Position numbers and translations under genes: made by a program. Below the pieces are notes generated by a model. The model was not told the DNA's origin, made no database searches, and worked only from the letters and a program-made list of their open reading frames with translations. Below, in pieces: positions 44,468 to 64,000 of a stretch of 64,000 bases of DNA. Source of the stretch: Shimia sagamensis (GTDB lineage: Bacteria > Pseudomonadota > Alphaproteobacteria > Rhodobacterales > Rhodobacteraceae); assembly GCF_900182745.1 (NCBI RefSeq), contig NZ_FXTY01000002.1, positions 558,001-622,000 of the forward strand, given 5' to 3'. Each line of letters begins with the position of its first letter. The stretch's first letter is position 1.

Positions 44468-46927
44468 TCAACATTTGATACGTTCCATAGAGGGATCAAG
44501 CATTGGCTTGATTGAAGCACTCGCCGGAACAGCCTGGCCAGCCACGTCTATTTCCCAGTTTCCATTCTGCACCGTGGCAAGAGACACCGGCACATCCAGA
44601 GAGACAAAGCCAATTCCGACCGCGCCGCCCAGCGTGTGACCATATCCGCCAATCTGCAAGTGACCAACTTCAACACCATCAAGATAAACAAGCTCATTTC
44701 CATAAAGCAGCGGTTCAGGGTCCTGAAGCAGAAACTGCAGCATTCGGGTTTTGGGAACACCCCGCGCTTTTATGTCCGCCAGTGCATCATGGCCAATAAA
44801 CCCACCGGGTTTGTCCAGCTTCACGGCAAAGCCAAGCCCCGCTTCAATCGGGTTGTCAGTGTTGTCCACATCCAGCCCAAAGTCGCGATAGGCCTTTTCC
44901 AAACGCAGTGAATTGAGGGTCTGCATGCCTGCATCGCGCAGGCCAAACGCGCGGCCCACTTCTTTCAGCAGATCATACACCTGAACTGCAGCATATGAGG
45001 GCACCTGAAGCTCCCACCCAAGCTCGCCAACAAAAGTGACCCGGAAGGCTTTCACCATCCAATAACCGACGTCTATGTCCTGACAAGTCATAAACGGGAA
45101 CGCCTGATTGGACATATCTGTGCTGGTGACCTTTTCCATCAACTGGCGCGCTTTGGGACCGTGAATATTGATCTGAGTGATACCCGGCGTTACGTCCGTA
45201 ATCACCGCAATTTCGCCGGATTTGATGTGGCGGCGCATACGCATTTCGGTGTGGCCGTGGCTGTTTTCGCCAACCACCACCATAAATTTGTTTTCGCCCA
45301 GCCGGGTTACGGTCAGATCGGCTTCAAACCTGCCTTTCTCATTGACCCACGCGGTATAGACCAGACGGCCGTGGGGAACATCAACTTCGTTGCAGCTCAG
45401 TCGGCTCATCAGTGCAAGCGCATCGGGGCCTTCGACAACAAACTTGGACATGGCAGACATGTCCATGATGATCACATCCTCACGGGCGGCGCGGTGCTCT
45501 TCGGCGTGCCAATCAAACCAGTTCTGCCGGAACCAGCTGTATTTTTCTACCTTTGCCTGATCGGGTGTAGGGGCAAACCAGTCGGGCATTTCCCAGCCAT
45601 GCCCCTCAGCAAAGAATGCGCCTGAGGCCACCAGCCGGTCGTGTAGGGCTGAGCGTTTCATATCACGGGCGGTTTCATAGCCTTCGTTGTGATAGTGCTG
45701 GCCAAACATTTTCCCCAATAGTTCTGGTCCACGATCCCGGCGAAAGGCGCGGGTGGCGTGGTGACGGGTGAACCGGTTTACGTTGATGCCGGTGACATCG
45801 ATCGGTGGGTGTCCATCGACAATCCAATGTGCAAGCACATTGCCAGTGCCCGCACCGTTCAGAATTCCAAGGCTGTTCAAGCCACAGGCCACAAAACAAT
45901 TGCGCAGTTCCGGGGTTTCGCCAACCAAGGGGGCAAGGTCAGGCGTAAAGCTTTCAGGCCCGCAAAACAGCTTGCGCACCCCGACATTCAGGGTTGAGGG
46001 TACGCGCGAGTATGCGGTTTCCAGATGTGGTGCCACGCGGTCCCAATCCGGTTCAATCTCGCCAAACGCAAAATTTTCCGGGATACCGTCAAGCTTCCAA
46101 GGGGCTGCACCTGGCTCAAACAGCCCAAGCATCAGCCCTCCCACTTCTTCCCGGTAGTAGGTGTAGGTGGATGGATCCTCAAGGACCGGCAAGTCGCGGC
46201 TTAAACCGTCGATGTTTTCCGTGATCAGATAATAATGCTCGGCTGCTTGCAGGGGCAAGTTGATCCCGGCGCTGGCGCCCAGTTGCCGTGACCACATACC
46301 CCCGCAAATCACAACGTTTTCGGTCGTGATGGCCTGGCCATCAGAGGTGCGCACGCCGGTTGCGGTGCCGTTTTTGGCCATGATTTCGGCGACAGTGACG
46401 CCTTCGAAGATTTGTGCGCCACGCATACGGGCGCCTTTGGCCAGTGACATGGTCACATCCACCGGATTGGCGCGACCGTCCTCTGGCGTATAGAAACCCG
46501 CCAGCACGTCAGACATATCGCCAATCGGGAACAGGCTTTGGCACTCCTGAGGGGAGATTTCGTGGATATTGATGCCATGGCGGCGCATGAAAGGCGCCAC
46601 GCGGCGCATTTCGTGAACGCGTTCTTCGTTGTTGGCGATTTGCAGATAGCCAACGTCGCGAAATCCGGTGGTAAGGCCTGTTTCCTGTTCAAGAGCCGCG
46701 TAGAGGTCGCGCCCGTGAGTGTAGATTTCACACTCGGCCTCGGTTGTCAGCAATCCCCCCACAATTAGTCCGGCTGCGTGCCACGTGGTGCCAGACGTGA
46801 GTTGGTCGCGTTCCAGCACCACCACATCTGTCATGCCCAGCTTTGCCAGGTGGTAGGCGGTGTTGCAGCCAATTGAGCCGCCACCAATGATCACGGTCTG
46901 CGCGTGCGTGGGAAGAGGTTTGGTCAT
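44468..46927 (-). CDS. FAD-dependent dehydrogenase with GcvT domain (dimethylglycine/sarcosine dehydrogenase-like)
   Basis: An 819-residue two-domain enzyme. VIIGGGSIGCNTAYHLAKLG at the start is the FAD dinucleotide fold, and TSGTTWHAAGLI carries the His that binds FAD covalently in this family. From about residue 430 the folate-binding GcvT/aminomethyltransferase domain follows (MDMSAMSKFVVEGPDAL, ending with GAVGIGFVSLDVP). Such enzymes demethylate N-methylglycines and pass the C1 unit to tetrahydrofolate. The exact N-methyl substrate cannot be read off. It is divergent from a BetI-like TetR. ATG 46927 is preferred over 46939; neither has a strong ribosome site. Confidence 0.88.
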   Translation of the reverse strand: MTKPLPTHAQTVIIGGGSIGCNTAYHLAKLGMTDVVVLERDQLTSGTTWHAAGLIVGGLLTTEAECEIYTHGRDLYAALEQETGLTTGFRDVGYLQIANNEERVHEMRRVAPFMRRHGINIHEISPQECQSLFPIGDMSDVLAGFYTPEDGRANPVDVTMSLAKGARMRGAQIFEGVTVAEIMAKNGTATGVRTSDGQAITTENVVICGGMWSRQLGASAGINLPLQAAEHYYLITENIDGLSRDLPVLEDPSTYTYYREEVGGLMLGLFEPGAAPWKLDGIPENFAFGEIEPDWDRVAPHLETAYSRVPSTLNVGVRKLFCGPESFTPDLAPLVGETPELRNCFVACGLNSLGILNGAGTGNVLAHWIVDGHPPIDVTGINVNRFTRHHATRAFRRDRGPELLGKMFGQHYHNEGYETARDMKRSALHDRLVASGAFFAEGHGWEMPDWFAPTPDQAKVEKYSWFRQNWFDWHAEEHRAAREDVIIMDMSAMSKFVVEGPDALALMSRLSCNEVDVPHGRLVYTAWVNEKGRFEADLTVTRLGENKFMVVVGENSHGHTEMRMRRHIKSGEIAVITDVTPGITQINIHGPKARQLMEKVTSTDMSNQAFPFMTCQDIDVGYWMVKAFRVTFVGELGWELQVPSYAAVQVYDLLKEVGRAFGLRDAGMQTLNSLRLEKAYRDFGLDVDNTDNPIEAGLGFAVKLDKPGGFIGHDALADIKARGVPKTRMLQFLLQDPEPLLYGNELVYLDGVEVGHLQIGGYGHTLGGAVGIGFVSLDVPVSLATVQNGNWEIDVAGQAVPASASIKPMLDPSMERIKC

Positions 46928-46955
46928 AACTGGGTCCATTCCGGGAGATTCGGTA

Positions 46956-47017
46956 TTTGATCAAATCTTTGATTGACGCTGTCAAAAAATCAAGTCATTG
47001 ATTGAACAGCCATTCAA
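46956..47017. promoter_or_regulatory. Repeated TTGATTGA / TTGAA-N6-TTCAA operators
   Basis: The divergent gap holds TTTGATCAAA (46956-46965), TTGATTGA at 46969-46976 and again at 46998-47005, and a perfect TTGAA-CAGCCA-TTCAA inverted repeat at 47002-47017. Clustered repeats between a TetR gene and its neighbour suggest cooperative repressor sites. Confidence 0.6.
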
Positions 47018-48526: not shown

Positions 48527-49324
48527 TTAAATACACTCCCCGCCATCAATGACCAGCGCATGGCCGGTCATGAAGGTGGACATGTCAGACGCGAGAAACA
48601 GGATCGAATCCGCCATTTCGCCGGTTGTTCCCCAACGTCCCATTGGAATGGTTTTGGAAACGTAGCGCTCCAATTTTTCGCGCCCGCCCATTTGCGTCTC
48701 AAAGCCAGCGTTAAAAGGCGTGTCGATGAACCCAGGGCACAAAGAGTTGAAGCGGATGTTGTCTTTGGCATAGTCAGCCGCCATCTGACGTGTCATCGCC
48801 ACAACCGCATGTTTGGTTGTGGCATAGGCAATCATCTCGCGGTCATATTGCACACCTGAATTGGACGAGGTGATGATAACACTGCCGCCACCGTGTGCGC
48901 GCATATGTCCAACAACCGCGCGCGCAGCGACAAAATGCGACCTGACGTTCAGCTTCCAGGACAAGTCCAAACCCTCAAGGGGAACTTGCTCCAAATTGCC
49001 TTCGACCTGGTAGCCCGCATGGGAGTGCAGCACGTCAATGTGGCCGTAGGTTTTGACGGTTCTGTCAATCTCTGCAGAAACGGCTTTGTCATCAGTCACA
49101 TCAAGGCCTGCTGATGTGGCGCTTACGCCTTCGGATTTCAGCGCCTCGACCACTTGCGCGGCCTTGTCGGCATCAAGGTCTGTCACAACCACCTTTGCCC
49201 CGTGGCGCGCCATGGCCATGGCTCCTGCACGTCCAATGCCGGATCCTGCGCCGGTGACCAGTGCGACTCTGCCCTTAAGGGTTGGGAAATGGGGAGCAGA
49301 AAATGGGGTCTCAGCGAGGGTCAT
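48527..49324 (-). CDS. Short-chain dehydrogenase, classical
   Basis: A 265-residue SDR with VALVTGAGSGIGRAGAMAMA, a VTDLDAD motif that favours NAD, HSHAGYQ in place of NNAG, and YATTKHAVV as active site. Its ATG overlaps the stop of the second permease gene (ATGA), so it is translationally coupled to the transporter, and a second SDR follows 22 bases later. Two consecutive SDRs fused to an import operon suggest successive oxidations of an imported hydroxy compound or amine-derived alcohol. Confidence 0.9.
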   Translation of the reverse strand: MTLAETPFSAPHFPTLKGRVALVTGAGSGIGRAGAMAMARHGAKVVVTDLDADKAAQVVEALKSEGVSATSAGLDVTDDKAVSAEIDRTVKTYGHIDVLHSHAGYQVEGNLEQVPLEGLDLSWKLNVRSHFVAARAVVGHMRAHGGGSVIITSSNSGVQYDREMIAYATTKHAVVAMTRQMAADYAKDNIRFNSLCPGFIDTPFNAGFETQMGGREKLERYVSKTIPMGRWGTTGEMADSILFLASDMSTFMTGHALVIDGGECI

Positions 49325-50139
49325 TTTGGTTTTTTGCCTCCGCGTTGAAGCAGTAATTGAGCCGTGATTAGCATCAAAAGGGATACAATCAGCACCATTG
49401 TGCCGATCGCATTGATCTCTGGCGTGACGCCTCGACGGATCGAGGAAAACACATAAATCGGCAGAGTGGTTTCGGACCCGGCGACAAAGAACGCGATGAT
49501 AAAATCGTCAAAGCTGAAGGTGAAGCTGAGCAGAAAACCCGCCAGGATGGCCGGAAATATCATCGGCAGGGTCACCTGTCGAAATGTCGCCATTGGCGTT
49601 GCGTACAAGTCTGAGGAAGCTTCTGTCAAAGCACGATCCATGCCGGCCAGCCGGGCCCGTACGATGATTACCACCAACGCCATTAGAAACATCGTGTGGG
49701 CCGCAATCAGTGAGCCCATCCCCATTTGTAGCTTTGGCGGCGTCAGCCCATTTGGCCAAATCGCTGCGATCATCGGGTTCAGTTGATCAAAAACGGTGAC
49801 CAATCCAATCAATGTGGCAATGCCAATCACGATGCCGGGGATCATAACCGCTACATAGATCAGCAGATCAAATGCGGTACGCACCGGCCCCTTGATCCCT
49901 TGCAGCGCAACCGCAGCCATGGTGCCAAAAACGCTGGCACATAAGGCGGAGGTAAAGGCCACGATCAGGCTGGTCTCCAGGGCATCCATGACAAAGGGAT
50001 TGGAAAGCGCCTTGCCGTACCACTTGGTCGAAAAGCCCTGTAGCTGGCTTGCATGACGCCCGGCATTAAAGCTGAAAAGCGCGATCACGCCAATCGGGAT
50101 GTACAGAAACAGGTAAACGCAAACTGCATAAGCTCTCAT
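49321..50139 (-). CDS. ABC transporter permease, PotC-like
   Basis: A 272-residue inner-membrane protein with six hydrophobic segments and the EAA loop ASSDLYATPMATFRQVTLPMIFPAI at about residues 175-200. The C-terminal SFTFSFDDFIIAFFVAGSETTLPIYVFS is typical of PotC/YdcV subunits of polyamine or opine-type importers. AGGTGACCC precedes the ATG. It overlaps the next SDR by four bases and follows the PotB-like gene by nine. Confidence 0.92.
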   Translation of the reverse strand: MRAYAVCVYLFLYIPIGVIALFSFNAGRHASQLQGFSTKWYGKALSNPFVMDALETSLIVAFTSALCASVFGTMAAVALQGIKGPVRTAFDLLIYVAVMIPGIVIGIATLIGLVTVFDQLNPMIAAIWPNGLTPPKLQMGMGSLIAAHTMFLMALVVIIVRARLAGMDRALTEASSDLYATPMATFRQVTLPMIFPAILAGFLLSFTFSFDDFIIAFFVAGSETTLPIYVFSSIRRGVTPEINAIGTMVLIVSLLMLITAQLLLQRGGKKPK

Positions 50140-50148
50140 TGGGTCACC

Positions 50149-51000
50149 TCACATGATCGACACGTCTTCGCGGCTGGCGCCAAGACGAGTGATTAGCCGC
50201 ATGTAGACCGTGACGGCGATCAGCATGACAACCACCAGCGTGACTGCCACCGCTGAGCCATAGGCCCAATTGCGGGATTGCAAGAACAGGTCGACCAACG
50301 CATTGCCGACGAAGAATACTTTGCCTCCGCCCAGTAGAGCCGGGATCAGATATTCCCCCATCAATAGGATGAAGACGAGCATGCATCCGGTTGCGATGCC
50401 GGGGATAGAAAGCGGAAGGGTAATCTGAAGAAACGTGCGCCAGGGTTTGGCACCAAGATCGGACGAAGCCTCGAGCAGCCGTTTGTCCAGTTTGTCGAGG
50501 CTGACAAAAATCGGAAAAACCATCAGCGGCAGGTATCCGTAAATGATCCCGATCAGCACCGCAAACGGCGTGTTGATCAGGCGGACACCTTCGATCCCGA
50601 CCCAATCCAAAAGGGCGGGAATGCCGCGGCCGCCCAACAGAAAAATCCAAGCGTAGCTGCGGATCAGGATTGAGGTCCAGAACGGCACAATGACCAGCAC
50701 CAAAAGGATCGTTTTCCATTTTGGGCTGCTTTTGACCGCCAAATAATAGGCCAACGGGTAAGCAATCAGCAGCGCTGATAAAGTGCCAATTGGCGCCAAT
50801 GTCATTGTGTTCTTGAACGCAGCCCAGCGGGCCGGGAGATTGGCGTATTGCTCAAATGTGAAAGCGGGTACCACGCCACCGGCGGGTGCCCGCTCCCCAA
50901 AGCTGAAGATGAAAACAACAGTCAACGGAATGATCAGCATCACCAGGAACCAGGCCCCGGCCGGGGCCAAAAGCAACCAATTGCGCGTACGTGCCGTCAT
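50149..51000 (-). CDS. ABC transporter permease, PotB-like
   Basis: A 283-residue membrane protein with six segments; PFWTSILIRSYAWIFLLGGRG and the EAA loop EASSDLGAKPWRTFLQITLPLSIPGI are hallmarks of PotB subunits. It pairs with the PotC-like permease to form the channel. It starts 21 bases after the binding-protein gene. Confidence 0.92.
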   Translation of the reverse strand: MTARTRNWLLLAPAGAWFLVMLIIPLTVVFIFSFGERAPAGGVVPAFTFEQYANLPARWAAFKNTMTLAPIGTLSALLIAYPLAYYLAVKSSPKWKTILLVLVIVPFWTSILIRSYAWIFLLGGRGIPALLDWVGIEGVRLINTPFAVLIGIIYGYLPLMVFPIFVSLDKLDKRLLEASSDLGAKPWRTFLQITLPLSIPGIATGCMLVFILLMGEYLIPALLGGGKVFFVGNALVDLFLQSRNWAYGSAVAVTLVVVMLIAVTVYMRLITRLGASREDVSIM

Positions 51001-51021
51001 CGTGTTTTCACCTTTGTTGGC

Positions 51022-52179
51022 TTAGGCTGATTTGAAGCGCGCCATCAATTCGGCACGGTTCGGGTCGGTCAATGTCGCGGCTGCACCAAACTCAAGCGGT
51101 GTCAGAAGCTCCTGCGCAGGGAAGAGGATTGGATCGTTCTTCAGGGCTTCGGGCAGAAGTTCAAAGGTACGGGCATCCGCTGTGGGATATCCGTGCGCCA
51201 GCACCTCCTTGGCATTGACTTTAGGATCCAACAGGAAGTTGATCAGCGCATAAGCCGCGTTCATATGGGGCGCACCTTTGGGAATGGCATAGTAATCACT
51301 CCAGATCTCCCCCCCCTCACGACCCAGCACGTAGTGAATTTCAGGCATGTCAGTGTTGAGCTGTTTGCCATCGCCGGACCAGCAGATTGTCAGCCAGGCA
51401 TCACCATTGCGCATCGAAGGTTGATAATCGGACGTGATCGCAAAGAGGTGTGGTTTTACATCAATCAGCAGCTTTTCAGCATCGGCCAATTCTGCTTCGT
51501 CGACCGAATTGAACGAATACCCATAGTAGTTCAAGGCGCTGCCGATGGTTGTCAGTTGATAGTCATGCACCATGGCGCGGCCGGTGAATTTGTCCCGCGC
51601 AATGTCAAAGAACTCTTTCCAGGAGGCAATTGGCTTGCCGTCATTGTGCTTGGTGTTCACCGCCATTCCGGTGGAACCCCAGTTTTTGGGCACCGCATAA
51701 AGCGAACCATCAACAGATCCTGCCTCGGCATAGCGGGCATCAAAGGCAGCCCCGTCGTAGTTCGGGAGCTTAGAGGTATCCAGTGGTTCAATCAGGCCTT
51801 CATCGACATAGGTCGAGATCGTGTAGTTGGTGGGCACATATACGTCCCATCCGGTTGCGCCAGCTTGCAACTTGGCCAGCATTTCCTCGTTTGAACCAAA
51901 GACGTTGACCTGCACATGGGCCCCGGTGGCTTCGGTAAAGGCCTCGAAGTTTTCGGGATCATGATAATTGGGCCAGGTCGCTAAAACCACGCGATCACCA
52001 ATGTCACCCGCAAACGCAGGACTAGGGCGCAAACCCGGAACGGCGGTGCCCACAACGGCTGCTGCGGCGCCAAGCCCGGTTACATTGAGAAAATGGCGTC
52101 GTGTAATGGACCCTTTTCTGTAACTCTCCAACTCTTGCATGAACTTCTGTTTGGAGATGTAGTCGATGTCTCTGGTCAT
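51022..52179 (-). CDS. Periplasmic binding protein, PotD-like, Tat-exported
   Basis: A 385-residue binding protein. A twin-arginine signal (SITRRHFLNVTGLGAAAAVV, ending SPAFA near residue 56) sends it folded to the periplasm. The mature part carries VVLATWPNYHDPENFEAF and the family pattern YVPTNYTISTYVDEGLIEPL; NPIGAPH-like IPKGAPHMNAAYALINFLLDP is near the end. PotD/PotF-type proteins bind polyamines, but members also bind other amines or opines. The ligand-binding Asp/Trp set cannot be resolved without a structure alignment. Confidence 0.9.
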   Translation of the reverse strand: MTRDIDYISKQKFMQELESYRKGSITRRHFLNVTGLGAAAAVVGTAVPGLRPSPAFAGDIGDRVVLATWPNYHDPENFEAFTEATGAHVQVNVFGSNEEMLAKLQAGATGWDVYVPTNYTISTYVDEGLIEPLDTSKLPNYDGAAFDARYAEAGSVDGSLYAVPKNWGSTGMAVNTKHNDGKPIASWKEFFDIARDKFTGRAMVHDYQLTTIGSALNYYGYSFNSVDEAELADAEKLLIDVKPHLFAITSDYQPSMRNGDAWLTICWSGDGKQLNTDMPEIHYVLGREGGEIWSDYYAIPKGAPHMNAAYALINFLLDPKVNAKEVLAHGYPTADARTFELLPEALKNDPILFPAQELLTPLEFGAAATLTDPNRAELMARFKSA

Positions 52180-52209
52180 TCCCTTTACTCCCTACGGTTG
52201 CTGTGTGTT

Positions 52210-53331
52210 TTAGTTTCGGTCGAGGATAAGTGCTGCGCTGTCTTCCCAGGACACAAATGCTGTGTCGCCAACGGTAAAAGCGCCTTCGGTTTGTTCAGAT
52301 TGTCGTGGTGAAAGAACCAGAAAATCACCAAGCGTTTCATGGTTCACCAAATACTCGGTGTGTTCTCCCAGAAATATCCGGTTGCGCACCTCCACTGTCA
52401 GCCCCTCACCTTGACGTTGCAGGGTCATTTGTTCGGGGCGCACGCTGACGGATACGTCTTCACTATTGCTCATTTCTTCGGTGGGGGTTCCCCGCATGAT
52501 CATCCCGTTGCTGAGACGCACGGACGTCAATGGGCCGGGCTGTTCGACAACGGTGCCATCAAAGAAGTTAGAAGTGCCAACAAAATCAGCCACATACTTG
52601 GAGTTCGGTCGATCATACAGCTCTTGGGGACTGCCGACCTGGACAATGCGCCCCTCGCGCATGATGCAAATACGATCGCTCATCGACAGGGCTTCTTCCT
52701 GATCGTGAGTCACAAGGACAAAGGTGATGCCCAACTGACGTTGCAAATCCTGCAATTCGATCTGCATCTCTTTGCGCAACTTGCGATCCAAGGCCGCCAT
52801 CGGCTCATCCAGCAACAGAAGCTTGGGCTCGTTGATGATTGCACGTGCCAAGGCGACGCGCTGCTGCTGCCCGCCAGACATTTCCCAGATTTTGCGGTCC
52901 TCGAACCCGCCGAGCTGAACAATGTCCAAGGTCTTGTCGACCTTTTCCGCGATCTGCGCTTTGGGTAGCCGTGGGCGACGCTGACGCAACCCGTAACCAA
53001 TGTTCTGGGCAACGGTCATATGTGGAAATAGAGCGTATTGTTGAAACACCATATTGACGGGACGATGGTGCGCTTCCAGTGCGTTGACCACCTCGCCATC
53101 AAGCAGCACGTCACCTTCGGTTGGCGTCTCAAACCCTGCCAACATTCTAAGAGCGGTGGTTTTTCCGCAACCCGACGGCCCAAGGAAAGACAGGAATTCA
53201 CCTTCCGTGATTGTCAGATTTAGATCGCTGGCTGCGAGCACATCTCCAAAACGTTTGGACACACCCCGTAACTCGGCAATGGCTTTGCCGTCCGCTGGAG
53301 TGAAAGCCTCAATATATCCCCTGGATTCCAT
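52210..53331 (-). CDS. ABC transporter ATPase, PotA-like
   Basis: A 373-residue ATPase, first gene of the import operon. Walker A GPSGCGKTTALRMLAGFE near residue 52, Q-loop MVFQQYALFPHMTV, signature MSGGQQQRVALARAI and Walker B LLLDEPMAALD are all present; the last 130 residues form the TOBE regulatory domain. It powers the two permeases. The start at 53331 is 121 bases from the divergent LuxR-type gene. Confidence 0.93.
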   Translation of the reverse strand: MESRGYIEAFTPADGKAIAELRGVSKRFGDVLAASDLNLTITEGEFLSFLGPSGCGKTTALRMLAGFETPTEGDVLLDGEVVNALEAHHRPVNMVFQQYALFPHMTVAQNIGYGLRQRRPRLPKAQIAEKVDKTLDIVQLGGFEDRKIWEMSGGQQQRVALARAIINEPKLLLLDEPMAALDRKLRKEMQIELQDLQRQLGITFVLVTHDQEEALSMSDRICIMREGRIVQVGSPQELYDRPNSKYVADFVGTSNFFDGTVVEQPGPLTSVRLSNGMIMRGTPTEEMSNSEDVSVSVRPEQMTLQRQGEGLTVEVRNRIFLGEHTEYLVNHETLGDFLVLSPRQSEQTEGAFTVGDTAFVSWEDSAALILDRN

Positions 53332-57803: not shown

Positions 57804-58673
57804 TTAGGTCCAGTCAGCTTGAACCAAAAGATTGGAAAAAGTTTCAAGCAAATTTGGAAAACGTGCGCGCTGACTCAACAGCAGAGAAACAGTGCGTCGC
57901 TGAGTTATGCCATCTATGGGTCGAAAAACGAGCTCGTCGGGCAAGGCGCGAGCAACACTTTTTGGCAAGATGGTCACCCAATTGTTTGTTCGTGTCATCG
58001 CAATCAAAGAGTGTGTGTTGTGCACCACTATATGGGCTCCTTCCGAGGCGGATCTGACTGCGTCCAGATCCAATTGGCTGCACAAATTGTTGCTCATAAA
58101 TGCATAGGAGAAGATGTCGTCGAGGGTTGGCGGAGACGTAACTTTGGCCAGCGGATGTTCAGCTCCGCAAAGTAAACCAAACGCGTCTTCAAAAAGCGTG
58201 ACACAATCCACTCCGTTGAGAGATTGACTGCCTGAAGCGATGCCAATATCCGCCTCTCCATGCAAAATGGCCTCGGCCACCATCGCACTGTCCATGTCTC
58301 TTAGTTCGACCTTTAGATGCGGGTGCTGTTCCATCATTGTGGAAATAGCTTGAGGCAATGCTAGCCCCGTCGCCGACGGAATCGACGCAATTTTTATCAA
58401 CCCCTGAGGCGCATTTGCTGCATTCTCGATTGAGGTCACGGTGTCGTCAAACTGACGAAGCTGTGATTGAGCAATGCGAAAGACCTCCTGACCGAGGGGT
58501 GTCAGCTTGTTTTTCCGCTCCGTTTCAAACAGGCGCGCCCCAAGATGGCCTTCAAGTTGTTTCAGCGACATTGAGAGTGCAGACGGGGTGCGCCCCAATC
58601 GTGTTGAAGCCTCCATCAAACTTCCAAACTGCGCGACCGTGCTAAAGCACCGCAACATATCGATTTTGATCAT
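57804..58673 (-). CDS. LysR-family regulator of the aldehyde dehydrogenase operon
   Basis: A 289-residue LysR regulator. HTH: CFSTVAQFGSLMEASTRLGR then TPSALSMSLKQLEGHLGARLFETERK; effector domain IASIPSATGLALPQAIS and beyond. It is divergent from the five-gene operon starting at 58789 with a 115-base gap containing AT-rich LysR-like motifs, so it probably controls that pathway. The co-inducer is presumably the substrate. Intact. Confidence 0.9.
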   Translation of the reverse strand: MIKIDMLRCFSTVAQFGSLMEASTRLGRTPSALSMSLKQLEGHLGARLFETERKNKLTPLGQEVFRIAQSQLRQFDDTVTSIENAANAPQGLIKIASIPSATGLALPQAISTMMEQHPHLKVELRDMDSAMVAEAILHGEADIGIASGSQSLNGVDCVTLFEDAFGLLCGAEHPLAKVTSPPTLDDIFSYAFMSNNLCSQLDLDAVRSASEGAHIVVHNTHSLIAMTRTNNWVTILPKSVARALPDELVFRPIDGITQRRTVSLLLSQRARFPNLLETFSNLLVQADWT

Positions 58674-58788
58674 ACTTCAATTTTTCTGTAATTTGATTAA
58701 GAAGTTTAAGTTTGACTGATGTGACACCGAGAGTCCACGATATCTCATCAAACTTTGGCCATTTTGGCCAGCGCGTAAGGGACACGGC

Positions 58789-60240
58789 ATGTCAAACATC
58801 AATTGCAATTTTGTGGCGGGGCAATGGGTCACTGGGGATCAGGAAATTGAAAACCGGAACCCCTCGGACACAAGTGACCTGATTGGCCGGTATGCGCAGG
58901 CCAGCCGGGGCCAGTTGGACGAGGCACTGGAACAGGCGCAACGCGCGCAAGCTGTGTGGGCCACTTATGGAATGGAGCGCAAGCAGGCCGTTCTGATGAG
59001 CATCGGTAATGAATTGATGAGCCGTGCCGACGAGCTTGGCCGGTTGCTTAGCCGAGAAGAAGGCAAGCCCTTCGCGGAAGGGCGTGGAGAGGTTTTTCGC
59101 GCAGGACAGTTCTTCACCTACTACGCAGCAGAATGTCTGCGTCAACTGGGCGAAAATGCCGACAGCGTGCGCGAAGGTGTTGAAATTGATGTCCGCCGCG
59201 AGCCCGTTGGTGTGGTGGCCATTGTCTCCCCTTGGAATTTCCCAACTGCCACAGCGTCTTGGAAGATCGCACCCGCATTGTGTTACGGCAACGCCGTGGT
59301 CTGGAAGCCAGCAAATGTCACGCCAGCGTCAGCCGTTGCACTGACTGAGATCATCTCCCGACAGGACATTCCAGAGGGGCTGTTTTCTCTGGTAATGGGC
59401 GCAGGCAGCTCGATCGGTCAGCATCTTGTTGAACACCCCTCCGTCGATGCAATTTCCTTCACTGGCTCCGTGCCTGTAGGCAAAGGTATCGCCACCGCCG
59501 CCATTCAGAACCTGACCAAGGTTCAGATGGAAATGGGCTCCAAAAATGCACTGGCTGTTATGGATGACGGAGACCTCGATCTCGCTGTGTCCGTTGCCCT
59601 CGGTGGTGCCTTTGGCGGCACAGGTCAAAAATGCACAGCCTCTTCGCGGCTTATCGTTCATGCGTCAGTGCATGATGCGTTTGTGGACAAACTGGTTGCT
59701 GGCGCAAAGGCAATGAAAGTGGGCCACGCATTACACGACGGCACCCAAATGGGGCCGGTTGTGAGCGCCCAACAACTTCAGGAAAACCTCGAATATGTCG
59801 CGTTTGGGCAAGCCGAAGGCGCCGAACTTGCCTGCGGCGGGGTCAGATTGGAGATGCCGGAGGATGGGTTTTATATGTCGCCGGGCATCTTTTTGAACAC
59901 CACAAACGATATGCGCATCAATCGTGAAGAGATGTTTGCGCCTTTGGCTTCTGTGATCAAGGTCGACAGCTATGATCAAGCCCTGGCAACAGTAAATGAC
60001 ACCAACTTTGGGCTTACGTCTGGCATCGTCACCCGTGATCTGGCACGCGCGACGCATTTCCGGAGACACGCGCGAACAGGTGTTGTAACGGTCAATTTGC
60101 CTACGGCGGGAACCGACTACCACGTGCCGTTTGGTGGTCGTGGTGACAGTTCTTATGGGCCACGCGAGCAAGGTCGGGCGGCTGCGGAATTCTACACCAC
60201 GGTCAAAACAGCCTACATCAGCGCGGGGGTGCCTTCCTGA
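58789..60240 (+). CDS. NAD(P)-dependent aldehyde dehydrogenase (semialdehyde dehydrogenase-like)
   Basis: A 483-residue ALDH with PWNFPTATASWKIAPALCYGN, catalytic Cys282 in GQKCTASSRL and general base Glu248 in QMEMGSKNAL. GNAVVWKPANVTPASA and FAPLASVIKV agree. The sequence resembles 2-oxoglutarate semialdehyde and similar semialdehyde dehydrogenases, but the specificity is inference. It is the first gene of an operon: its TGA overlaps the start of the dipeptidase gene by one base (TGATG). Confidence 0.9.
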   Translation: MSNINCNFVAGQWVTGDQEIENRNPSDTSDLIGRYAQASRGQLDEALEQAQRAQAVWATYGMERKQAVLMSIGNELMSRADELGRLLSREEGKPFAEGRGEVFRAGQFFTYYAAECLRQLGENADSVREGVEIDVRREPVGVVAIVSPWNFPTATASWKIAPALCYGNAVVWKPANVTPASAVALTEIISRQDIPEGLFSLVMGAGSSIGQHLVEHPSVDAISFTGSVPVGKGIATAAIQNLTKVQMEMGSKNALAVMDDGDLDLAVSVALGGAFGGTGQKCTASSRLIVHASVHDAFVDKLVAGAKAMKVGHALHDGTQMGPVVSAQQLQENLEYVAFGQAEGAELACGGVRLEMPEDGFYMSPGIFLNTTNDMRINREEMFAPLASVIKVDSYDQALATVNDTNFGLTSGIVTRDLARATHFRRHARTGVVTVNLPTAGTDYHVPFGGRGDSSYGPREQGRAAAEFYTTVKTAYISAGVPS

Positions 60241-61217
60241 TGCGCATTGACGGCCTTCAATACGCCAATTGGTCTGAAAAGATCTTCCGGCAACTGCGCG
60301 AAGGCCGTGTTGATGCGGTGCATGTCACGATCGCCTACCACGAAACCTTCCGTGAAACGGTTTTGAATTTCGAACGATGGAACCGCTGGTTTGAGACCTA
60401 CAGTGATCTGATTTTAAAGGGCACATCAGCCCGAGATATCGACATTGCCCGCAAAACAAATCGCACAGCCATCTTCTTTGGCTTTCAAAATCCCAGTCCG
60501 ATGGAAGACGACATCGGGCTGATAGAAATCCTGCACACGCTTGGCGCGCGCTTTATGCAGCTGACCTATAACAATCAGTCTTTGCTCGCCACGGGGTGCT
60601 ACGAGGCTGAGGACTCTGGCATCACCCGCATGGGCAAACAGGTCATCAAAGAAATGAACCGGGTTGGTCTCGTGGTCGACATGAGCCATTCCGCAGACCG
60701 TTCGACGATTGAGGCGGCGGATATCTCGGAACGGCCAATTGCCATCACCCATGCCAATCCGTTTGAGTGGTCTCCGGCGCTTCGCAACAAGAAAGACGAC
60801 GTCATCCAAGCGGTCACGCAAAATGGAGGCATGATAGGGTTTTCGCTATATCCTCACCACTTAAAGGACAAATCGGCCTGCACGCTTCAGAGTTTCTGCG
60901 AGATGGTTGCCCGCGCCGCGGACACATATGGGGTCACCCATTTGGGCATCGGATCAGATCTTTGTCAGGATCAGCCCGACAGCGTTGTGGAATGGATGCG
61001 CACAGGTCGTTGGAGCAAAGAGATCGACTTTGGAGAAGGGTCTGCCGCTTCGCCCGGTTTTCCTAAAATGCCCAGCTGGTTCCAAGACAATCGTGATTTT
61101 GACAACTTGGAAGCCGGATTGCGGGACGTCGGCATGAGCGCTGACGAGGTTGCCGCGATCATGGGCGGCAATTGGTACCGTTTCTTTGACGATAACTTTG
61201 GCGCAAGCGTCCCATGA
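60240..61217 (+). CDS. Membrane-dipeptidase family (peptidase M19) protein
   Basis: A 325-residue TIM-barrel metal hydrolase. Conserved M19 elements are seen in MQLTYNNQSLLATGC, GLVVDMSHSADRSTIEAAD, PIAITHANPFEW and THLGIGSDLCQDQ, with His/Glu ligands for two zinc ions. The first zinc pair, usually near HxD at the N-terminus, is replaced by VHVTIAYHE, so activity may differ from true dipeptidases. Such enzymes cleave dipeptides or other amide bonds. It is coupled on both sides by overlapping stop/start codons. Confidence 0.88.
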   Translation: MRIDGLQYANWSEKIFRQLREGRVDAVHVTIAYHETFRETVLNFERWNRWFETYSDLILKGTSARDIDIARKTNRTAIFFGFQNPSPMEDDIGLIEILHTLGARFMQLTYNNQSLLATGCYEAEDSGITRMGKQVIKEMNRVGLVVDMSHSADRSTIEAADISERPIAITHANPFEWSPALRNKKDDVIQAVTQNGGMIGFSLYPHHLKDKSACTLQSFCEMVARAADTYGVTHLGIGSDLCQDQPDSVVEWMRTGRWSKEIDFGEGSAASPGFPKMPSWFQDNRDFDNLEAGLRDVGMSADEVAAIMGGNWYRFFDDNFGASVP

Positions 61218-62899
61218 TCACAGATACGCCGCATATCAAAAGGCGCCCTCCTTCGGAGGTGATGCGATTGGAGCGACTGGGCTCTTTGCATCAGAGTCGA
61301 TTGAGTTTTATGCGGGTGTTGTTACGGCGGTTGGCCGGTGACAACTGGGAGTTTTCTCGGCCACAATTTGAGATTGACGAAACCGGCGTTGGCTTTGCCG
61401 TTTACACGGCGACGGGGCCAGAACGCAGCTATTCTCTGGTCGCTTTTGCCCATGATCTACCGGATGAAATGCGCTCGGATCGGGTGATTGCCGAAGCGTG
61501 GGACGCCACCTTTACACTGTTTGATGGTGTGCCAAGTGATGCGGATATCGACCGGTTGAAACAAAACGTGCCGCTGCAAGAAGCAGGGCGGATCAGCGAA
61601 AAAGAGCTGTCGTTGTCTCGGGCCAACCGCTCAGTGCGACTTTGGGAGCATGTCGTGTCCGCTCTGGCCAAAGGGCATCAACCTGACACCAACATGATTG
61701 ATCAGGTTGGCTACCTCATGCGGACCACGGCGGTTTATGGATCGGGAAAATTTGGCGCTGCGGATCGCGAGACCATTTCGGATCGCGAGGAGTTGTACCC
61801 GCCTTTTCAAGTCGAAATGCTGTCTGTGTACCTCACTCGGGCCTTTGTTCTCGATCTGGTTCAGCACATGGCGCAAATGAAGGGTGGCACAACAACGGCA
61901 ATCCTGGATCCGTCAATTGCGCGGGACCTGGGCATTGGAAACTCCACTGGTTTGGGCATGGCGCCGTTTGTGATCAACCACCCAGTTTTGTTCAACAATT
62001 GGATTATGGCGCGGGAGGAGGCCATCCGTCAGGTACGGCTGATTGCGTCGGCGTCCGAAGATGTCACGGGTGTTTTTAAGAATCGCCTGAAACGCAGCGC
62101 CATTTCAGTTTCCCGATGGGCATCCAAACATCCTCTGCAGATTGAGAAAATCGACGCCTTGAAAAGCGACTTGGAGCGTCTGAGTTCACGGGTTGAGGAA
62201 GACGATTTTCAAACACCCTATCCATGGAACCAATTGATGGAATGGGCGGCCACACATCTTAGTACCGAAGGGCAGGAGCTACTGGCGTCGCTGATATTGG
62301 AACCCTATCCAGATTTGGTGGATCCGCTTGTCACCAGCATGGCGGACGCCAGCCCTGCCGTGACCACCATCGACGGCGCGATGCCGATTGGTGACGTGAA
62401 CAGCCTTCTTGAGCAAAGTTTCGGTTGGGCGTTTGAGTATGATTGGCAGTCCCCCCGCAACTGTGCACGCGCTTGGTATGTGTCCGAAGAAAAGCTGGAG
62501 CCGCGACTGGGAGAACGGTTTGAAGAGCCGATTGCCCCCTATGAGCAACCTTTGGCACCAGCCCGTGATGCGGCACAGGCCTACAACGCATTGAAAAATT
62601 GGCCTGAGACGTCCGAGATAGCCGAATTCCTGCAACGTCACCCTGAACACCGCCATACCATACGACGCGCGCAACTGAGCCAAAGTGCCCCCTATGGCGA
62701 AATTCGCGACAACACGATCGCAGTCGATGTGCTGCCAATTGACATGCTGCGCGCAAAACTCTCTTTTTTTGGCGCAACACATTTTGACCCAAGGTCAGAC
62801 CGCTGGGTCCGAATTTGTATGTTCGCCGGTGCCCCATATCCCGAGACCCTGTCTGAAGCCAACGCCGATGATTGGGTGTATCCGGAGTTGGCCCCATGA
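61214..62899 (+). CDS. 561-residue protein of unknown function
   Basis: I do not recognise a characterised family. The protein is soluble, mixed charge, with no signal peptide or TM helix. Notable parts: RRPPSEVMRLERLGSLHQSR at the start, DQVGYLMRTTAVYGSGKFGA, PPFQVEMLSVYLTRAFVLDL, LDPSIARDLGIGNSTGLGMA, then WAFEYDWQSPRNCARAWYVS. The GNSTGLGMAPF stretch looks like a nucleotide- or cofactor-binding loop. It overlaps the dipeptidase by four bases and the DUF3726-like gene by four, so all are made together and probably act as one pathway or complex. Confidence 0.75.
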   Translation: MITDTPHIKRRPPSEVMRLERLGSLHQSRLSFMRVLLRRLAGDNWEFSRPQFEIDETGVGFAVYTATGPERSYSLVAFAHDLPDEMRSDRVIAEAWDATFTLFDGVPSDADIDRLKQNVPLQEAGRISEKELSLSRANRSVRLWEHVVSALAKGHQPDTNMIDQVGYLMRTTAVYGSGKFGAADRETISDREELYPPFQVEMLSVYLTRAFVLDLVQHMAQMKGGTTTAILDPSIARDLGIGNSTGLGMAPFVINHPVLFNNWIMAREEAIRQVRLIASASEDVTGVFKNRLKRSAISVSRWASKHPLQIEKIDALKSDLERLSSRVEEDDFQTPYPWNQLMEWAATHLSTEGQELLASLILEPYPDLVDPLVTSMADASPAVTTIDGAMPIGDVNSLLEQSFGWAFEYDWQSPRNCARAWYVSEEKLEPRLGERFEEPIAPYEQPLAPARDAAQAYNALKNWPETSEIAEFLQRHPEHRHTIRRAQLSQSAPYGEIRDNTIAVDVLPIDMLRAKLSFFGATHFDPRSDRWVRICMFAGAPYPETLSEANADDWVYPELAP

Positions 62900-63534
62900 C
62901 CATGTACTTGACTGTGTCCCTAAACGAGGTCGAAGCAACCGCGAAGAAAGCTGCACGCGGCGCGGGTTTCACCTGGGGCATGGCAGAAGAGGCCGCCAAG
63001 GCCACGCGCTGGCTTTGTGGAAACGGGGTCAACGGTTGCGCGGAACTCTCCCGACTGTTGTCGATCAAAGAGCGCAACATTGAGCGCACTCCAATTAAAG
63101 AGGCCGGGGTTTGGGAAGCCGCTTCTGGACCTCTCTGCCCTATAAACGTGGGCGCGTGTATGGCTGATCAAGCGCATGAAATAAGTGCGGAAGGTTGGCA
63201 AGTGAACGATGTCGCTTGCCCTGCCTTCCTGATGCCTTTTGTGGCCGACATTGCCGCAAAGACAGGACAAACTGTCGGTCTGGTGGGGCAAGAATTCACT
63301 TTGGTGACCGACGGTAATCACCAGCACCTCACCGGAAAGGTGCCTGCTCATGGTGTCTCGATGGTCATCCGACCAACCCAAAAGACGGTACTCCCCAGTG
63401 GCGGCTTCACCCGCGTCACGTCCACAGAAGCAGATTGGGCCGTGCTGCAAACACTGGCGTATCGCACCTATGCACCAGCAACCGAAGCGTCTCGTATGAC
63501 GGGCGCGGGCGCGGGAATTACTGACAACGACTAG
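62896..63534 (+). CDS. DUF3726-like protein
   Basis: A 212-residue soluble protein: VSLNEVEATAKKAARGAGFTWGMAEEAAKATRWL at the N-terminus and a hydrophobic DVACPAFLMPFVADIAAK centre. It resembles the family annotated DUF3726, which has no assigned function. ATG at 62896 overlaps the previous stop (ATGA). Three more cysteines (CGNG, GCAEL, LCPI) precede the centre, possibly a metal site. The last gene follows after 14 bases. Confidence 0.72.
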   Translation: MTMYLTVSLNEVEATAKKAARGAGFTWGMAEEAAKATRWLCGNGVNGCAELSRLLSIKERNIERTPIKEAGVWEAASGPLCPINVGACMADQAHEISAEGWQVNDVACPAFLMPFVADIAAKTGQTVGLVGQEFTLVTDGNHQHLTGKVPAHGVSMVIRPTQKTVLPSGGFTRVTSTEADWAVLQTLAYRTYAPATEASRMTGAGAGITDND

Positions 63535-63548
63535 ACGAGGACACCAAC

Positions 63549-64000
63549 ATGGAAACCAGAACGCTAAGCCTTGCTGAAATCGAAGATTTAAGCCTGCGTG
63601 CATTGGTGGCCGCTGGCACCTCAGTTGAAAATGCCCGCCCCCTTGCGGTGGCCACCGCGGCAACCGAGGCTGACGGGATATCCAGTCATGGTCTGGCCTA
63701 TATTCCAATATACTGCGAGCACGTGATTTGCGGCAAAGTAGACGGCCAGGCAACACCGAAGCGTGAAACCACGGCTCCCTCTGTCATCACCGTCGATGCC
63801 GCAACAGGATTTGCCCACCCGGCAATCGACTTAGGTTTTGATGCCTTGGTCCCACTTGCCCGGACACAGGGAATAGCGGCACTGGCAGTAAACAATAGCT
63901 ATAATTGTGGTGTTCTTGGGTATCACACACAGCAACTGGCCAAAGCGGGCCTGGTGGGACTTGGATTCACCAATGCGCCAGCCTCAATTGCACCCTCAGG
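63549..64000 (+). CDS. Ldh-family (malate/L-lactate) dehydrogenase, N-terminal part
   Basis: Only the first 150 codons lie in the window; the gene continues past the right edge. TEADGISSHGLAYIPIYCEHV and AVNNSYNCGVLGYHTQQLAKAGLVGLGFTNAPASIAPSG are typical of the Ldh_2 family, which includes malate, ureidoglycolate and delta1-pyrroline/piperideine-2-carboxylate reductases. The conserved His in SSHG is the catalytic base in the family. GAGGACACC precedes the ATG. Last known gene of the operon. Confidence 0.9.
   Translation, partial: METRTLSLAEIEDLSLRALVAAGTSVENARPLAVATAATEADGISSHGLAYIPIYCEHVICGKVDGQATPKRETTAPSVITVDAATGFAHPAIDLGFDALVPLARTQGIAALAVNNSYNCGVLGYHTQQLAKAGLVGLGFTNAPASIAPS

Follow-up and report, generated by a model that had tools for sequence, protein, structure and literature searches.

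A LysR-linked operon of Shimia sagamensis, probably for homarine catabolism, with a conserved core of three proteins without a described reaction

Homarine (N-methylpicolinate) is a nitrogen compound made by algae, and knowing the genes for its breakdown lets metagenomes be read for this flow of carbon and nitrogen. A 2026 study in Nature Microbiology reportedly describes a homarine operon, homABCDER, distributed in SAR11 and SAR116 and leading to N-methylglutamate. Degradation of another N-methylpyridine carboxylate, trigonelline, relies in Acinetobacter baylyi (tgn genes) on a flavin-dependent two-component oxygenase and an aldehyde dehydrogenase step. Ruegeria pomeroyi DSS-3 is a known homarine consumer, and homarine is one of the metabolites nearly fully stripped by R. 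pomeroyi from diatom lysates within 10 hours (PMC12817926). In R. pomeroyi, mgdABCD stands next to the AraC-type TmaR, a linkage reported also for strains without the upstream methylamine genes (PMC13390433). Here, we analyse a stretch of 64,000 nucleotides from Shimia sagamensis (contig NZ_FXTY01000002.1, positions 558,001 to 622,000; hereafter the window, positions 1-64000, its genome bearing the handle G000), at the end of which five coupled genes stand behind a divergent LysR-family regulator. With a probability of roughly 0.8, we consider these genes to be a homarine catabolic operon, most likely the homABCDE plus R set reported in 2026.

Organisation and conservation of the operon

The first gene of the operon encodes an aldehyde dehydrogenase (ALDH; 58789-60240, + strand; Pfam Aldedh, E 5.5e-153) and is followed on the same strand by genes for an M19-family protein (60240-61217; Peptidase_M19, E 2.9e-70), a 561-residue protein outside all Pfam families at E values up to 1, hereafter the orphan (61214-62899), a DUF3726 protein of 212 residues from the ATG at 62896 (62896-63534; DUF3726, E 1.6e-20) and an Ldh_2-family, imine-reductase-like protein (63549-64000 within the window; Ldh_2, E 2.7e-91). 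Overlaps of 1 base (ALDH/M19), 4 bases (M19/orphan) and 4 bases (orphan/DUF3726) join the first four, and a gap of 14 bases separates DUF3726 from Ldh_2 in the window. Divergent to the five lies the LysR-family gene, a candidate homR (57804-58673, - strand; LysR_substrate, E 2.8e-30). The contig was read on past the end of the window: the Ldh_2 gene continues to the equivalent of 64556, with its stop 556 bases beyond the window, and 58 bases later begins a gene for a 611-residue transporter of the betaine/carnitine/choline family (BCCT; equivalent to 64615-66450). An earlier note on this DNA, which could not see the BCCT gene because it lies beyond the window, had described five coupled genes with these overlaps behind a divergent LysR; the map of open reading frames and the Pfam matches bear this out, and its view of one tightly coupled, LysR-linked catabolic operon is supported. 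Its remark that two of the five proteins lack an assigned role is also true in the family libraries searched.

Five structural genes and a regulator fit the name homABCDER; the operon is probably the published hom operon, and the pathway is probably already in print. The name homABCDER itself was not found in the literature searched, where homarine-catabolism genes appear only in one paper citing the 2026 work.

The intergenic region between the LysR and ALDH genes (58674-58788) holds TTTGACTGA and an inverted repeat. Indeed, TTTGACTGA is kept in 28 of 34 divergent LysR/ALDH pairs, that of the window among them, and stands just beyond an adjoining inverted repeat of the CTTCA-N7-TGAAG type, perfect in 10 of the 34 and degenerate in the window. 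Over the whole loci (678,746 bases, both strands), there are 12 copies of the perfect repeat and 35 of TTTGACTGA.

A named scan returned at least 572 relatives of the orphan, and the best 80 named loci were used for counts, with partner genes detected by built profiles that may miss divergent partners and with some loci ending at contig ends. M19, orphan and DUF3726 lie on one strand within 6 kb in 75 of these 80 loci and are the conserved core of the operon; ALDH accompanies the trio in 54. Spacing is at most 60 bases in 78 of the 79 detected orphan-DUF3726 pairs, and at most 200 bases for ALDH-M19 (53 of 55), DUF3726-Ldh_2 (34 of 35) and M19-orphan (60 of 75). In 12 of the 75 M19-orphan pairs an insert of 1.7-2.0 kb is found, carrying a BCCT-family reading frame in nine and an unassigned one in three. 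The best 80 relatives come from Shimia, Ruegeria, Phaeobacter, Leisingera, Roseovarius and others, including some metagenome bins labelled Granulosicoccaceae or Acidimicrobiales.

Paralogous trios, here called type B, occur outside the operon, and the one on the plasmid pSymB of Sinorhizobium meliloti is a new observation. It comprises an IclR gene, an orphan relative (26% identity, strain R28), a 242-residue protein and an M19 protein, with an ATP-binding cassette (ABC) transporter, a class-III aminotransferase, a succinate-semialdehyde dehydrogenase and two RidA genes as partners (L184, 11941-22324); Bosea (31%) and Variovorax (30%) carry an orphan relative, a 236-residue protein and an M19 protein. 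Because the partners of the pSymB trio are different, the enzymes of the core are likely to act on several substrates. Solving the chemistry of a trio found again, next to different genes, in bacteria of soil and symbioses would explain several uncharacterized clusters at once.

In a family survey of 198 genomes, one per genus, the orphan was present in 92: 61 close (at least 54% identity), 29 distant (41-53%) and two set aside, one at 32% identity and one marginal at 6e-4. Across the class it was found in 53 of 385 genomes, and among plasmids 168 of 72,556 records matched, mostly from Sinorhizobium (64) and Phaeobacter (58); a plasmid of P. inhibens DSM 17395 carries the orphan. The megaplasmid of R. 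pomeroyi DSS-3, the only part of that genome searched, gave no match. In 14 of 20 further loci picked from the 53 class genomes and read, the orphan is immediately preceded on its own strand by M19. A BCCT gene separates the two in one more (L226), M19 is downstream in the type-B order in L230 and divergent in L224, and in L228, L229 and L231 such an arrangement was not seen. The core was also found in genomes of 1.2-1.4 Mb, whose stretches read contain 28-36% guanine plus cytosine, and in a genome of 2,753,527 bases. These resemble SAR11, HIMB59 and SAR116, in keeping with the distribution reported for the homarine operon in SAR11 and SAR116. In two of the genomes of 1.2-1.3 Mb (L218 and L219) the trio is intact and the rest of the operon is lacking in the stretch read.

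Two side observations concern the orphan copies. Eight distant ones (L038, L039, L042, L043, L045, L046, L050 and L053) share a recurring chromosomal setting, in which neighbours look by eye like truA or a tRNA synthetase gene and the maps display no ALDH beside the trio. One in-frame stop interrupts the matches in G015, in the second copy of G001, in G035 (TGA in these three) and in a fragment in G160 (TAG).

Linkage to N-methylglutamate dehydrogenase genes

BCCT transporters lie in or beside the operon, and genes of the N-methylglutamate dehydrogenase type adjoin it in some genomes, which points to an N-methylated, betaine-like substrate ending in N-methylglutamate; the proline- or hydroxyproline-derived substrate suggested by the earlier note finds no support in this neighbourhood. 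In Ruegeria sp. TM1040 and Phaeobacter inhibens 2.10, an unbroken run comprises soxBDAG-like genes, AraC, LysR, ALDH, M19, BCCT, orphan, DUF3726 and Ldh. The AraC-type regulator thus stands between the sox-like genes and the operon, and its helix-turn-helix and DJ-1 domains were confirmed in the TM1040 copy. The transporters are of the BCCT family except on a plasmid of Aminobacter, where genes of an ABC system for glycine betaine follow the operon directly and were counted in favour of a betaine-like substrate. An OpuAC binding protein encoded beside L085 was left uncounted, because the solved structure nearest to it is 7yle, a dimethylsulfoniopropionate-binding protein, and it was thus rejected as a carrier of homarine.

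Among the 80 named loci, five (L064, L080, L085, L090 and L093) have SoxA-like genes near or beside the operon. Grouped by identity to the L085 protein, with identity itself as the clade border, SoxA homologues form at least three groups: clade I at 57-100%, clade II at roughly 49-56% among the rows listed, and clade III at roughly 44%. To call gmaS, the profile TIGR03105 (gln_synth_III) was used with a threshold of E 1e-100; it matches 62 of the 198 family genomes, 60 of them over its cut-off. In 18 of the 40 genomes that carry both, clade I SoxA is encoded no more than 20 kb from gmaS, and because of this linkage clade I is taken as the N-methylglutamate dehydrogenase clade; the SoxA-like proteins of TM1040 and Phaeobacter share 74% identity with a clade I protein encoded 8 kb from gmaS.

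Clade I is present in 30 of 61 genomes with a close operon versus 20 of 108 without (p 4.5e-5), a comparison that omits the 29 distant-orphan genomes, counts the two set-aside genomes as without operon and treats genera as independent, kinship being ignored. As gmaS itself is commoner with the close operon (24/61 versus 22/108, p 0.011), the comparison among gmaS-free genomes matters: here, again with the distant-orphan genomes omitted, clade I occurs in 14 of 37 genomes with the close operon and in 4 of 86 without (odds ratio 12.5, p 8e-6). Four of the 30 genomes that combine the close operon with clade I have the two, measured from the orphan, no more than 10 kb apart.

The encoded proteins and a proposed route

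The chemistry of the three core proteins is the more interesting part of this operon, as the libraries searched describe no reaction for them and one of them is without a fold relative among the solved structures searched. This one is the orphan, which gave a single chance-level match in NCBIfam (E 0.099) and no sequence relative in PDB (best E 3.2). Its model (predicted local distance difference test, pLDDT, 89.3; predicted template-modelling score, pTM, 0.91) found no structural match in PDB (best E 0.58) or BFVD (best E 0.15), and we regard a new fold, relative to these two databases, as a lead. In 25 diverse members, some of them type-B paralogues, 49 positions never vary; arginine occupies 13 of these and glycine 10, and none holds a histidine or cysteine. 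His218 and His256 are kept in all members but one, and this pattern makes a histidine-ligated metal oxygenase less likely.

DUF3726, which appears in no paper found in the literature searched, has a predicted fold of Ldh_2 type that is reduced in length and devoid of the catalytic histidine, a relationship new here. Indeed, its model (pLDDT 92.6) retrieved Ldh_2 structures as all of the first 27 hits listed by Foldseek (best E 9.6e-4, the sole one below 0.001; query TM-score up to 0.54), and profile alignment with hhalign gave a weak N-terminal match to Ldh_2 (45 columns, E 3.6e-4, probability 37%). Neither of the two DUF3726 proteins scanned matched Pfam Ldh_2, and the protein is about 120 residues shorter. 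His47 of the SHG motif, which we take to be the catalytic histidine of Ldh_2, is invariant in 15 Ldh_2 rows; no histidine column exceeds 60% conservation in 68 DUF3726 rows. Independent support comes from the type-B small protein, which matches Pfam Ldh_2 weakly and below cut-off in two of three cases (E 0.0054 and 0.025); against the DUF3726 profile it also gives a weak match (probability 5%, E 0.008).

The third core protein belongs to Peptidase_M19 by its Pfam match, and appears from its residues to lack the standard N-terminal metal ligands of that family. The N-terminal HxD and the bridging glutamate, which are metal ligands in renal dipeptidase, are replaced by IDGLQ (read by comparing the sequence with the motif, as the alignment to GliJ begins at residue 34) and by Gln83, which aligns to the bridging Glu of GliJ, so that a binuclear metal site is not recognizable. 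All 11 members aligned share Gln83, His150, His171 and Asp240. The nearest solved structure, the amidohydrolase 2i5g (E 3.9e-51), likewise has IDGL at its start and GFQN where GliJ has GIEG. With these ligands missing, we rejected the M19 protein as an ordinary dipeptidase.

The two remaining enzymes are closer to described ones. For ALDH, the best NCBIfam models are those of C5 2-oxo-semialdehyde dehydrogenases (2,5-dioxovalerate or alpha-ketoglutaric semialdehyde dehydrogenase). For the Ldh_2 protein, the nearest solved structure is delta1-piperideine-2-carboxylate reductase (1wtj, E 2.5e-59), in agreement with the imine-reductase kinship that the earlier note had proposed. DpkA, of the 1wtj family, is reported to be an N-methyl-L-amino acid dehydrogenase (PMC6110843, PMC6775277), and both kinships, that of ALDH and that of Ldh_2, count in favour of the homarine reading.

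From these elements we infer the substrate, each reaction and the joint action of the core as follows. Homarine, a betaine-like zwitterion, would be imported by the BCCT carrier, and M19, orphan and DUF3726 would jointly open the pyridinium ring and shed one carbon. The resulting C5 2-imino semialdehyde would be oxidized by ALDH, and its C=N bond reduced by the Ldh_2 protein to N-methyl-L-glutamate. A sarcosine-oxidase-type N-methylglutamate dehydrogenase, adjoining in some genomes and, in the rest, encoded away from the operon or exchanged for a kindred enzyme, would then yield glutamate, and LysR would control the operon. By arithmetic, the net reaction from homarine to N-methylglutamate and formate (C7H7NO2 + 3 H2O + O = C6H11NO4 + CH2O2) is a two-electron oxidation, and because the ALDH and Ldh_2 steps cancel out, the ring-opening step must supply it. 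A hydroxylation before ring opening is possible, since molybdenum-hydroxylase-type (molybdopterin) genes flank the operon in three loci (L057, L102 and L103, with domains confirmed in L057 only).

We tentatively propose that M19, orphan and DUF3726 form one multi-subunit enzyme of an undescribed kind that opens N-heteroaromatic rings, and that the plasmid trios of Sinorhizobium, Bosea and Variovorax apply the same chemistry to other heterocycles. Its parts, as modelled, would be a new fold, an inactive-looking subunit derived from a dehydrogenase and a metal-poor M19 barrel. The absence of a conserved histidine from the dehydrogenase fold modelled for DUF3726 and of an invariant histidine or cysteine from the orphan, neither of which resembles a classical metal enzyme, would also suit an arrangement in which these two are accessory (assembly or scaffold) proteins and M19 alone hydrolyses. 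This is a question of mechanism within homarine catabolism, and its odds do not add to those of other substrates. We hold it to be rather unlikely, as the trio stays together in L218 and L219 and in the Sinorhizobium, Bosea and Variovorax versions, and as the orphan has so many invariant positions.

Weighing the substrate, and comparison with known systems

Several observations weigh against homarine as the substrate, or against the linkage on which this assignment draws. The earlier note would be refuted if the five genes lay apart in most genomes, and here the outcome is divided: the core trio holds together, and all five were found side by side in no more than 30 of the 80 loci. ALDH matched 45 NCBIfam models and falls short of the cut-off of each of the 25 shown. 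No known oxygenase domain was found by Pfam in the operon, though net cleavage needs an oxidation, which would thus be carried out by the core in an undescribed way or by an enzyme encoded elsewhere. The equation of TIGR03105 with gmaS is our assumption, and the profile matched eight of 14 control genomes, one of them over the cut-off. Clade I is absent from 23 of the 37 gmaS-free genomes with a close operon. For the distant orphan group, clade I is not significantly enriched (9/29 versus 20/108, p 0.20; gmaS-free, 1/13 versus 4/86, p 0.51), and this group was rejected as a homarine pathway for want of a significant link. Finally, the genome of the window itself has neither gmaS nor clade I SoxA, just SoxA homologues at 54% and 44%; the linkage to N-methylglutamate dehydrogenase is thus found in relatives and not in the window.

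If N-methylglutamate is made in S. sagamensis, clade II or some other demethylase must act there, as clade I is missing. Its clade II SoxA (54% to the L085 protein) is encoded about 72 kb upstream of the orphan (G000:C2:545025-547931, L164), with clade III on another contig, and is a possible alternative N-methylglutamate demethylase. Clade II lies beside genes that look by eye like dnaG and rpoD in five of six regions read, L164 among them, the sixth listing showing antisense frames. An arrangement like that of L164, plus a glutamate-dehydrogenase-like gene near soxB (by eye), was observed in L167, L170, L175 and L176. Within the window, an 830-residue frame with DAO, FAO_M and GCV_T domains, of the dimethylglycine/sarcosine dehydrogenase type (44468-46960, - strand), is one candidate demethylase. 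It lies near polyamine-type ABC transporter genes, and relatives at 30-43% identity occur in five fetched loci (L102, L118, L129, L180 and L234). Four genes at 49321-53331 (- strand) look by eye like a spermidine/putrescine-type ABC importer (ATPase, binding protein and two permeases).

Neither BCCT nor betaine ABC carriers are homarine-specific, and the pSymB trio stands with aminotransferase, succinate-semialdehyde dehydrogenase and RidA genes. Both facts would suit an operon degrading another N-methylated heterocycle or betaine (trigonelline or another N-methylpyridine carboxylate, for example) to N-methylglutamate or to methylamine and 2-oxoglutarate. We judge this improbable, since the N-methylglutamate dehydrogenase link and the C5-semialdehyde-type ALDH agree with a C5 product whose carboxylate adjoins the nitrogen, as in homarine, and since the trigonelline route of Acinetobacter ends in succinate semialdehyde. 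A proline-, hydroxyproline- or amide-linked pathway, with M19 cleaving a peptide or amide bond, Ldh_2 as reductase of a cyclic imine and ALDH performing the last step, would agree with the kinship of Ldh_2 to delta1-piperideine-2-carboxylate reductase and with the best ALDH models, 2-oxoglutarate-semialdehyde dehydrogenase activity also ending hydroxyproline and sugar-acid routes, but we set it aside as very improbable, because M19 lacks the N-terminal HxD and bridging glutamate, the operon's neighbours are N-methyl-amine genes, and no proline-pathway gene is annotated around it in TM1040, P. inhibens and Aminobacter, in a look that included no dedicated search.

Homarine thus being the preferred substrate, the operon can be set beside three described systems. 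With the gmaS-mgsABC-mgdABCD genes of methylamine users (R. pomeroyi SPO1548-1588; PMC13390433), it has in common mgd-type genes with an AraC-type neighbour. It differs from that pathway in that its surroundings in TM1040 and P. inhibens are without annotated gmaS or mgs, and in its proposed substrate. With the trigonelline route of Acinetobacter baylyi it would share an N-methylpyridine carboxylate as substrate and does share an aldehyde dehydrogenase, whereas no domain like the oxygenase of that route is found in the operon. The 2026 hom operon, of which this one is probably a member, would by its name likewise have five structural genes and one regulator, and reportedly also occurs in marine Alphaproteobacteria and is linked to N-methylglutamate dehydrogenase.

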